A stretch of DNA of 64,000 nt from Pseudomonas helmanticensis (GTDB lineage: Bacteria; Pseudomonadota; Gammaproteobacteria; Pseudomonadales; Pseudomonadaceae). This document shows, piece after piece, positions 21,579-63,336 of the stretch; the first letter of the stretch is position 1, and every line of letters starts with the position of its first letter. The position numbers and the translations under genes were made by a program. The stretch lies in the NCBI RefSeq assembly GCF_900182985.1, contig NZ_FXUY01000001.1, positions 4,475,501-4,539,500 on the forward strand, read 5' to 3'. The notes under the pieces were generated by a model, which did not search any database, had not been told where the DNA came from, and saw only the letters and a list, made by a program, of their open reading frames with translations.

Positions 21579-22079
21579 ATGTCTGGCAAACCCGCAGCAC
21601 GCGTATCCGACCCCACCGCTTGCCCGCTCCCCGGTCACGGCACCAACCCGATCGCCGCCGGTTCCGGCGACGTGTTCTTCGACGGCCTCGCGGCCGCCCG
21701 CCAAGGCGATGCCTCGGCGTGTGGTGGTGCGATGTCGGGAGGTTTGGCGACCACTGTGTTGATCAACGGCAAACCTGCCGCGACGGTTGATTCGGTGGGT
21801 ACGCATGGCAACAAGGTCACCGCCGGTTCTGGCACGGTGATTATCGGGAATTCGCATTCGCCTGTGGCGTTTGTGCCGCCAGTGCCTTTGATCATTCCGG
21901 GCTTCGATGCTCAGTTCCAGCTGAAAAACGGTCTGGGCAATCCGCTTGCGGATACTAAATACCTACTCCGTCGAGCGGATGGTTCTCTCGAAAGTGGAAT
22001 CACCAATGAGTTGGGCCTGACTCATCGCGTGAAGGCCCACGCAGCTTCCGAAAAAATCGAAGTTTTTATTGAGAGCTGA
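21579..22079 (+). CDS. PAAR-domain spike tip protein with short C-terminal beta domain
   Basis: 166 residues. The N-terminal PAAR domain (about 1-100) has KPAARVSDPTACPLPGHG, glycine-rich repeats and the usual TVLINGKPAATVDSVGTHG segment. The last 60 residues (PGFDAQFQLKNGLGNPLADT and on) form a transthyretin-like beta extension seen in T6SS loading proteins; the lipase effector has a similar N-terminal stretch. PAAR proteins sharpen the VgrG tip and carry effectors, here most likely the muramidase-like protein encoded next. AAGGAGATCC precedes the start. Confidence 0.93.
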   Translation: MSGKPAARVSDPTACPLPGHGTNPIAAGSGDVFFDGLAAARQGDASACGGAMSGGLATTVLINGKPAATVDSVGTHGNKVTAGSGTVIIGNSHSPVAFVPPVPLIIPGFDAQFQLKNGLGNPLADTKYLLRRADGSLESGITNELGLTHRVKAHAASEKIEVFIES

Positions 22080-61788: not shown

Positions 61789-61950
61789 ATGAAAAAGTCC
61801 AAACATGAACCAAAGCCTATGATGGCTGCCCGGTTCCAGGCTGAAGCTCGTGAAGTTTTGGCTAAGCGTTCCGGTAAGCGCAGCCGTTTTCTGGATGTTG
61901 CGTTGGCCAAAGGTTCTGATTTTGAGCCCGTCGGTCGACTGGCCGGCTGA
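61789..61950 (+). CDS. Small basic protein of unknown function
   Basis: 53 residues, MKKSKHEPKPMMAARFQAEA start, Lys/Arg-rich, ends FEPVGRLAG. The longer frame from 61723 has no supporting ribosome binding site; ATG 61789 follows AGGGTCTCT weakly. A strong terminator right after the stop supports it being a real transcription unit. No domain recognised. Confidence 0.6.
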   Translation: MKKSKHEPKPMMAARFQAEAREVLAKRSGKRSRFLDVALAKGSDFEPVGRLAG

Positions 61951-61964
61951 CGGTTTCGGATTCT

Positions 61965-61998
61965 CAAAAAAAGCTGCCGTGATTGGCAGCTTTTTTTC
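61965..61998 (+). terminator. Rho-independent terminator
   Basis: AAAAAAAGCTGCC, loop and GGCAGCTTTTTTT, 15 bases after the small basic gene. The A run on the other side also lets it act on minus-strand transcripts from the DUF6124 gene. Confidence 0.9.
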
Positions 61999-62065
61999 GT
62001 CTGGATTTCTACAGACAGTTGCAGAAAGGGGACTTAACGTCCCCTTTTTTCATCCGCAAATCTCG

Positions 62066-62437
62066 CTACGGCTTGGCCGCCACGCTTCGCACTTCAATCT
62101 GGTCGAGCGTCCCTTCCACCATCAATCTCACCCCGTCCGCCATTCTGCTCAGGGCCAGTGCCACCGAGCGGCGGGAGCCGTGGAGGTCGTCGGCGAGGTC
62201 GCAGGCGATGACGCTGATGGACAGAAGGTCTTCGGAGGCGTTGGCCATGAGGGCTTCGGCGTCGGTGCCGGGGGAGAGGCTGAAGAGGCCGGTTTCGCGT
62301 TTGGGGTGCGGTTCGATGGGCGGTTTGAAGTGGTGGTCGAGGGCGCGTTCGGCGGCTTCGTGGAATTTCTTTGATTCCAGGGATTCGTAGGGCGATATGT
62401 CTGGGGTTTCGGGGGGATTGGGTGTTGGTTTGATCAT
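62066..62437 (-). CDS. DUF6124 family protein
   Basis: 123 residues from ATG 62437. MIKPTPNPPETP start, YESLESKKFHEAAERALDHH, and a helical C-terminal part with LANASEDLLSISVIACDLAD-type segment (residues about 64-85) and ALALSRMADGVRLMVEGTLD. This matches small Pseudomonas proteins annotated DUF6124, related to DUF3077 proteins, of unknown function. The open frame continues 231 bases upstream into a strongly folded leader; I take that as untranslated, but a longer protein cannot be excluded from the frame alone. Confidence 0.8.
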   Translation of the reverse strand: MIKPTPNPPETPDISPYESLESKKFHEAAERALDHHFKPPIEPHPKRETGLFSLSPGTDAEALMANASEDLLSISVIACDLADDLHGSRRSVALALSRMADGVRLMVEGTLDQIEVRSVAAKP

Positions 62438-62468
62438 AGGTATTTTCCGAGTTATGGAGCCAACACCG

Positions 62469-62562
62469 TTTCGCTTGCTTCGAAAGGGTGGCAGCTGTGT
62501 ATAGGTGTGCAAGACCGGACTCGGAAACCGGCAGACCCGAAGGCCTCCCATACACAGCCGCC
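62469..62562 (-). ncRNA. Structured 5' leader RNA of the DUF6124 gene (predicted three-way junction)
   Basis: Read on the minus strand, 62562-62547 (GGCGGCTGTGTATGGG) pairs along all 16 positions with 62505-62490 (CCTATACACAGCTGCC), with two G-U pairs. Inside are two hairpins: AGGCC-TTCG-GGTCT at 62546-62533, with the extra stable C(UUCG)G loop directly next to the long stem, and CCGG-9 bases-CCGG at 62531-62515. A fourth hairpin, TTTCG-7-CGAAA, follows at 62485-62469, and the gene starts 32 bases later. A cis-regulatory element is the likely role. Confidence 0.6.
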
Positions 62563-62756
62563 ATAACAGTTCGCGAGCATAGGAAAACACTCGGCGAATA
62601 GCCATAACTGAATGCATGACGAGTCTGGACTTGCACGTCCGTATCACCGATTTTGCGGCGACCCACAAAGCCTATCCCCACCGTACCAACCCGCCTAGTT
62701 CATGGACAGCACCGCACTTTGCAGGAAATTTCCCATAGATTCGCGGGGCGGAAGAT

Positions 62757-62834
62757 CAAAAGATCGCAGGCTTCGCCAGCTCCTACAGGGATGTGTTTCA
62801 ACAGGTGTAGGACGTTGCCTGCGGAATCGTGACT
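62757..62834. repeat. Degenerate REP element
   Basis: AAAAGATCGCAGGCTTCGCC and AGCTCCTACAGGG match the arm of the REPIN at 2013-2090. A poorly matching reverse arm (TGTAGGACGTTGCCTGCGG) follows. It lies in the 515-base gap between the divergent DUF6124 and SCP2-like genes; apart from the leader RNA and this repeat I see nothing else there. Confidence 0.65.
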
Positions 62835-62952
62835 TGGCGGTCATCGTGCGGGAAATGGTCTGCATCCTCTTCCAACAGTGTCAGATACTGGCGTTATCGT
62901 CCGAATCCCTTACACTGCCTCGGCCGTTCATTTTCCTTTTGAGGCTGTGCGC

Positions 62953-63336
62953 ATGAAATTTCGTTTTCTTCTGTGGATGATGGGTTTGTTGATGGGTAAG
63001 GCCAGCCGGACAAATCCTGCGTTCCAACAGCAGTTGGGTGACAAGGATCTGGTGTTTCAGCTGCAGACGCTGGATGGGAAAGTGGCGCGGCATTTCGTGG
63101 TCAAGGATCAGCGCATCACCAGCAAGTCTGGCGTGGTGGCGGAGCCGGCGTTTGCGATTGCGTTTAAAGATGCCGGTTATGGCTTTGCCACGATGCAGGC
63201 GAAGAACAAGCAGTTGGCGTTTATGCAGGGGATTCAGGACAAGTCGATCCAGCTCAAGGGCAATCCGGCGCTGGTGATGTGGTTTCAAGGGTTGATGAAG
63301 TATTTGGTGCCGAGGAAGGCTAAGCCTAAGGTTTGA
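62953..63336 (+). CDS. Small SCP2-like protein
   Basis: 127 residues from ATG 62953, GAGG upstream. The N-terminal hydrophobic stretch (FRFLLWMMGLLMG) may be a membrane anchor. The rest resembles SCP2-type lipid-binding domains: VVKDQRITSKSGVVAEPAFA, a repeated strand/helix pattern and the IQLKGNPALVMWFQGLMKYL ending, where a KxxGN near the end is typical. Role unknown; the assignment is by pattern. Confidence 0.65.
   Translation: MKFRFLLWMMGLLMGKASRTNPAFQQQLGDKDLVFQLQTLDGKVARHFVVKDQRITSKSGVVAEPAFAIAFKDAGYGFATMQAKNKQLAFMQGIQDKSIQLKGNPALVMWFQGLMKYLVPRKAKPKV

Follow-up and report, generated by a model that had tools for sequence, protein, structure and literature searches.

What kind of element precedes the DUF6124 gene near the end of a 64,000-nucleotide stretch of the Pseudomonas helmanticensis genome (hereafter the window), and what does it do there? 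The first-pass annotation proposed an unnamed riboswitch-like or protein-bound RNA leader, which it could assign to no known Rfam family. A cmscan search of the whole window identified it instead as a C4 antisense RNA (RF01695) on the minus strand at 62568-62484, scoring 72 bits against a cut-off of 45 and spanning the full model (positions 1-87 of 87). The RNA is thus a member of a known family. C4 and the sRNA P10 (RF01668, 90.8 bits, plus strand, 21602-21673) are the only families that reach their cut-offs in the window, and no riboswitch or leader family was matched in it by cmscan. The minus-strand RNA 62568-62484 has a folding energy of -42.9 kcal/mol (z = -4.35), and none of 200 shuffled sequences folds equally low. 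The plus strand of 62469-62562 shows no excess fold stability (z = -0.31), and the plus-strand fold was dropped as a structured element on that ground. All features of the locus described below lie on the minus strand.

The architecture had largely been anticipated. The P1 closing stem (62563-62547 paired with 62505-62489) contains 17 base pairs, not the 16 first counted, and includes the two G-U pairs that had been noted. The two inner hairpins are also present: P2, with its UUCG loop (62546-62533), and P3 (62532-62514) together fill the interior of P1. The extra hairpin before the gene corresponds to a small palindromic hairpin 3′ of C4 (62485-62469), which is seen in the plus-strand fold and carries the a2 site GCAAG (62478-62474), a weak site here with a 5-nucleotide run of complementarity to the a′ site of C4.

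The stems of C4 covary. In an alignment of 28 of the 29 C4 copies found in this genome (L044 was left out as nearly identical to L042), 95.0% of 756 stem cells are paired and 13 of 27 stem pairs show two-sided changes (shuffled mean, 8.0). None of 500 shuffles reaches the observed value for any of five measures. For P3 alone, two-sided change is seen in just one of five pairs, in an alignment that sets P3 off by one column in a few rows, including the window’s copy. A covariation check had been recommended across many Pseudomonas genomes, and the result from the copies of this genome agrees with the proposal that selection acts on RNA structure in the DUF6124 leader. Codon conservation through the leader, raised at the same time as a possible refutation, does not apply, since the 29 copies vary in length from 84 to 91 nucleotides and therefore keep no reading frame through C4, and since the stem covaries.

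The window’s C4 carries two putative antisense sites. The b′ site in the P3 loop (TTTCCGAGT, 62519-62527) is complementary at nine of nine nucleotides to the leader of the next gene, and the matching b2 site (ACTCGGAAA, 62444-62452) lies over the DUF6124 Shine-Dalgarno sequence. A b′/b2 run of at least 9 nucleotides arose in 10 of 20,000 mononucleotide shuffles of the window’s leader. The a′ site (CTTGCAC, 62507-62513) is located in the strand joining P3 to P1 and matches a1 over 7 nucleotides and a2 over 5. A candidate c4-a1b1 element lies where it would be expected, 5′ of C4 (62622-62675); it was found in a permissive scan of 62400-62700 and scores 29.5 bits with RF03163, under the cut-off of 46.7 (E = 8.7e-06 in this 301-base scan). 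Complementary runs of 7 nucleotides at a1 (GTGCAAG, 62636-62630) and 6 nucleotides at b1 (GACTCG, 62625-62620) are present. The target gene (62066-62437) starts 46 nucleotides past C4 and encodes a DUF6124 protein of 123 amino acids (PF19619, 74.9 bits for a query stretch with one extra upstream codon; cut-off, 27). The order a1-b1-C4-a2-b2-gene is that of the c4-icd region of phage P1, whose record annotates a1, b1, c4, a2, b2, and icd in that order. No promoter- or terminator-like consensus was found in 61950-62960.

The window’s C4 is one of 29 in the P. helmanticensis genome, which share one scaffold and have 27 distinct loop sequences. The genome also contains 28 a1b1 matches, of which 10 exceed the cut-off, and an a1b1 match (E ≤ 0.001) is located 26-65 nucleotides upstream of 26 of the 29 C4 copies. 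On the same strand, 23 copies are followed by a match to DUF6124 (21 copies) or DUF3077 (2 copies), as expected from the suggestion that genes of both families share this type of leader. Of the other six, L012 precedes a Bro-N protein and L031 a ParD antitoxin gene; L032 is followed by a DUF6124 start whose frame is short, and L034, L057, and L058 by small proteins lacking a Pfam match. When a script took the longest frame, the start codon lay 45-56 nucleotides past C4 in 28 of the 29 copies, L031 being the exception. Short or shifted frames follow C4 in L032, L038, L039, and L053. Seen from the side of the genes, DUF6124 is matched 25 times above the cut-off and once below it, and DUF3077 three times, once in overlap with DUF6124. 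A C4 lies no more than 1.2 kb upstream of 24 of the 25 DUF6124 matches above the cut-off, three of them being the second gene of a tandem DUF6124 pair behind a C4; the remaining one has no C4 within that distance.

We then asked whether each C4 matches its own neighbor better than the neighbors of other copies. Every C4 was compared with every leader of the 29 copies. The score is the number of Watson-Crick matches in the longest antisense run that the P3-loop region can form with the 54-nucleotide leader (G-U pairs being allowed inside the run), and we placed both regions at set positions from the ends of C4. Swapping leaders in this way controls for plain complementarity to any Shine-Dalgarno sequence. 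For b′/b2, own pairs have a mean of 8.17 matches and swapped pairs 4.93; the own sum of 237 compares with a maximum of 171 in 20,000 permutations, and the own leader is best or tied in 25 of the 29 copies. When ranked by duplex energy, the own leader comes first in only 12 of 29. Among the 27 copies with distinct loops, a′/a2 is best or tied with its own leader in 21 (sum 192 vs. a permutation maximum of 152). The sums for a1 and b1 also exceed all permutations, by a smaller margin (199 vs. 175 and 188 vs. 171), and the own site leads or ties in only 8 and 9 of the 27 copies, respectively. The window’s b′ finds its best match of the 29 leaders in its own (9 nucleotides vs. 8 for the next-best leader), and its a′ matches its own leader over 5 nucleotides and another leader over 6.

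When the a and b scores are added, the cognate leader is highest or tied for 28 of the 29 copies and strictly highest for 23. Only 4 of 812 noncognate pairs reach at least 8 matches for b′ and at least 7 for a′, all of them between the members of two same-loop pairs of copies, and 10 of 812 reach at least 7 and at least 6. By sequence complementarity, little crosstalk is predicted within this genome, and most copies would address mainly their own neighbor. At 45 distinct loops among 58 loci, b′/b2 is again best or tied with its own leader in 37 (sum 380 vs. 262); the proportions are lower for a′/a2 (only 19 of 45; sum 319 vs. 247) and for b′/b1 (only 17 of 45, yet with a sum greater than in all permutations). 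Two loci that lack the usual target act as natural controls, since both have lost the match of b′ to the leader. With ParD replacing the target at L031, the leader of that copy comes 17th among the 29 for its b′, and the b1 match is still 8 nucleotides long; in L141, where no DUF6124 frame follows C4, the longest b′ match to the leader is 4 nucleotides.

The same relationship can be followed at a single chromosomal position. The gene neighboring the window’s C4 is present in 59 of 59 genomes. When the best 30 of these 59 loci (our own included) were scanned, C4 was found above the cut-off at this position in 14 of the 29 other genomes, and a DUF6124-like frame follows it in 13 of the 14. Among the 12 distinct loops at this position (12 of 15 copies, identical loops and L141 being omitted), the own leader is best or tied for b′/b2 in 11, and the own sum of 85 exceeds that of every one of 20,000 permutations (maximum 77). 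Pairing is therefore kept across species at this position while the loop sequence changes. The a′ site is nearly invariant there, and 2755 of 20,000 permutations reach the own sum. The 14 DUF6124 frames have a median dN/dS of 0.38 (range 0.04-0.60 over 91 pairs). A crude pattern search for C4 remnants at 10 of the 15 loci without C4 was uninformative. The suggestion that the leader is mobile holds only in part: the window’s copy occupies a shared position, while elsewhere in the genome the near-identical codes of L042 and L044 and of L050 and L053 point to some recent duplication.

Taken together, the chromosomal C4 copies belong to a known family and have covarying stems, and most are complementary, each in its own way, to the gene next to them. 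We consider it very probable that a chromosomal C4-type antisense RNA switch controls the adjacent DUF6124 gene. A single transcript would carry a1-b1-C4-a2-b2-DUF6124, and C4 would be excised from it, presumably by RNase P as in phages P1 and P7, so that the window’s C4 is expected to work as a separate processed RNA. The excised C4 would pair through a′-a2 and b′-b2 with mRNA of the same operon, and the b′-b2 duplex would cover the Shine-Dalgarno sequence and block translation of DUF6124; the upstream a1-b1 pair may contribute feedback. Translation of DUF6124 would occur when there is little C4 or when C4 stays unprocessed or is sequestered. Because C4 sits in its own target operon, the operon would make its own repressor. 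We infer the transcription, RNase P cleavage, repressing action, and releasing signal of the window’s C4 from phages P1 and P7 and from Acinetobacter baumannii (PMC12197685); RNase P processing of the P1 and P7 C4 RNAs is cited in PMC5320573.

The closest known counterpart is the C4 RNA of phages P1 and P7 (RF01695, together with RF03163, in the icd-ant operon), which has the same fold and the same a1-b1-C4-a2-b2-gene order as the window. Phage P1 has its a2 complement on the joining strand between P3 and the closing stem and its b2 complement in the P3 loop, which is where a′ and b′ are placed in the window, and in both cases b2 adjoins the start of the following gene. The setting differs: here C4 is chromosomal with 29 copies in one genome, and the targets are mainly DUF6124 and DUF3077 rather than icd-ant, with one copy of the 29 (L012) preceding a Bro-N protein. 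The antirepressor target of a P1-type immunity operon is not found behind the window’s C4, whose target is DUF6124. The Pseudomonas set also resembles the multicopy C4-like “Group 1” sRNAs of A. baumannii, which likewise have many chromosomal copies with variable antisense sites in the account excerpted from PMC5320573. Those RNAs were seen by RNA-seq, whereas the Pseudomonas C4 RNAs are known here from sequence. The same excerpt does not settle what they pair with, suggesting either phage RNA or mRNAs of other bacterial genes, whereas the sequences here designate the next gene as the target. Two further phage RNAs show partial likeness. IsrK (RF01394) of the Salmonella prophage Gifsy-1 belongs to an operon leading to an anti-repressor gene, and it activates translation in trans, whereas C4 represses (PMC4825925, in part). 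Of three Pseudomonas phage loci, two have an IsrK match in the interval from a1b1 to C4; in the window, cmscan found none. The CI RNA of phage P4, as described in PMC4825925, is, like C4, an antisense RNA that undergoes processing and is complementary to sites on either side of itself, seqA upstream and seqC downstream. Unlike C4, it acts through transcription termination; the likeness is drawn from that description. Both C4 and c4-a1b1 are listed for Proteobacteria and phages in the relevant entries of PMC2864571.

Other explanations of the locus can be weighed against a C4 switch. A structured leader acting only in cis (a riboswitch, protein-binding leader, or attenuator), in which DUF6124 would be controlled by refolding of its own leader, would account for a stable fold immediately 5′ of the gene, and at 15 of 58 loci competing hairpins and a T run between b1 and C4 fit such a device. 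We regard it as very improbable, since the C4 match is full-length and the P3 loop and the joining strand covary with the leader of the next gene, which is not predicted for a ligand pocket; the window’s copy, moreover, has no such T run and no terminator-like site in 61950-62960. A run of at least six T nucleotides occurs in the 75 nucleotides 5′ of C4 at 20 of the 58 loci, and 15 of these 20 (e.g., L002, L004, and L018) have three competing GGCGC-type arms by a pattern that we wrote ourselves. As b1 overlaps the first arm in 13 of the 15, C4 might also control termination at these loci. In two phage loci this interval between b1 and C4 is occupied by the IsrK family match. A decaying phage relic without present function would explain the broken units with short or shifted frames (L032, L038, L039, and L053) and the absence of a target at L031; the covariation of stems and loops, the dN/dS of 0.38, and a position common to 14 of 29 other genomes speak against it, and we give it hardly any credence.

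It is more conceivable, and still unlikely, that C4 is a trans-acting sRNA with its main targets elsewhere, either in other bacterial mRNAs or in incoming phage RNA, and that pairing with the neighbor is secondary. Related C4 sequences in three Pseudomonas phage records mean that phage RNA could meet a chromosomal C4, and the 10 of 812 noncognate pairs noted above would allow some pairing at a distance; against this, the neighbor’s leader gives the top or tied a + b total in 28 of the 29 copies, and the match has been kept by compensatory change at one locus. A special case of the C4 switch, to which we assign a low but not negligible probability, is a toxin-antitoxin-like pair in which C4 would serve as RNA antitoxin to a harmful DUF6124 protein. 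Many copies of a small protein with an antisense RNA directed at its ribosome-binding site would suit this idea, as would the P1 target icd, annotated as an inhibitor of cell division. Against it, C4 and its target stand in tandem on one strand, a layout different from that of antisense toxin genes that overlap their RNA; three C4 copies are followed by a tandem pair of DUF6124 genes; and the predicted helical hairpin of DUF6124 gave no informative match. In the AlphaFold2 model of the protein (mean pLDDT 78.6, pTM 0.52), the helices at 61-83 and 88-121 are well predicted and the N-terminus poorly. A Foldseek search with this fold returned no match at E ≤ 0.001 in the PDB or in a viral library, and no function follows from it.

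How widespread is the C4 switch proposed here? With stricter filters for C4 counts, C4 is found in 110 of 119 sampled Pseudomonas genomes and DUF6124 in 95, and all 95 genomes with DUF6124 also hold C4. The median is 13 C4 copies per genome, with at least 20 copies in 46 genomes and at least 33 in 16; the copy numbers of C4 and DUF6124 are correlated (Spearman 0.886 over the 119 genomes, with the C4 counts of 16 genomes entered as at least 33). Among 30 DUF6124 loci in other genomes, chosen as the best match in each of 30 genomes and hence not a random sample, 19 have a C4 above the cut-off upstream on the same strand and 11 have none within ∼1.5 kb. Again with stricter filters for C4, 11 of 228 other sampled genomes of the class were found to carry it, with one to four copies each, and DUF6124 occurs in none of the 228. 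The expansion of C4 thus looks special to the genus Pseudomonas. Cognate pairing is nevertheless seen outside the genus: among 16 of the 17 C4 matches listed there (one of these, L161, sits at a contig end), the own leader is best or tied for b′ in 13 (sum 129 vs. a maximum of 106) and for a′ in 11 (111 vs. 100). Related C4 sequences also occur in three Pseudomonas phage records (L167-L169), two of them with a1b1 and IsrK matches. The annotation of all three records places a protein gene in overlap with the C4 RNA; these may be overcalled or wrongly started frames.

The RNA family itself is already known. What is new, within the open-access literature that we searched, is the scale and the target of the Pseudomonas set: we found no report there of this set, of DUF6124 or DUF3077 as C4 targets, or of compensatory change between a C4 loop and a ribosome-binding site. 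Two common and unexplained Pseudomonas protein families, DUF6124 and DUF3077, thereby gain a testable mode of control, and for multicopy chromosomal C4 RNAs the suggested partner is the ribosome-binding site of their own next gene. The pairing rule suggests a direct test on the A. baumannii RNAs, and this one genome is itself a natural collection of antisense pairs for which little crosstalk is predicted. A bolder idea, which we think improbable but worth stating, is that Pseudomonas has converted a phage immunity switch into about 30 antisense channels, spread over the genome and almost isolated from one another, every channel combining a private code with a private copy from one protein family. 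DUF6124 and DUF3077 would then be effectors that C4 silences and that escape, one by one or jointly, once phage or stress upsets the C4 supply. If so, a1b1 or C4 RNA of an invading phage could, for example, compete with the matching channel, and the changes of code at a single locus would be the mark of an arms race or of copies becoming insulated from one another.

Some individual units deserve mention. In other genomes, several C4 copies (L001-L004, L015, L018, L022, L026, and L029) are followed by a short frame of the type MHALNPSKIRAAAHR and then by a second frame of the type LPEDLLCV ∼200 nucleotides past C4; two tested examples of such frames had no Pfam match. In P. helmanticensis, L012 (C1:4617008-4617094) stands ahead of a Bro-N protein of phage antirepressor type, as C4 precedes ant in P1, and several other genomes have close relatives of it among their top C4 matches. 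At L031 (C1:1212260-1212346) C4 is followed by a ParD antitoxin gene; in a relative, L025, an almost identical C4 precedes DUF6124 instead. L042 and L044 (on C1 near 1.606-1.609 Mb) form, with the nearby L037, a cluster of three C4-DUF6124 units within ∼6 kb. Two of these units have the same loop, which suggests recent local duplication.
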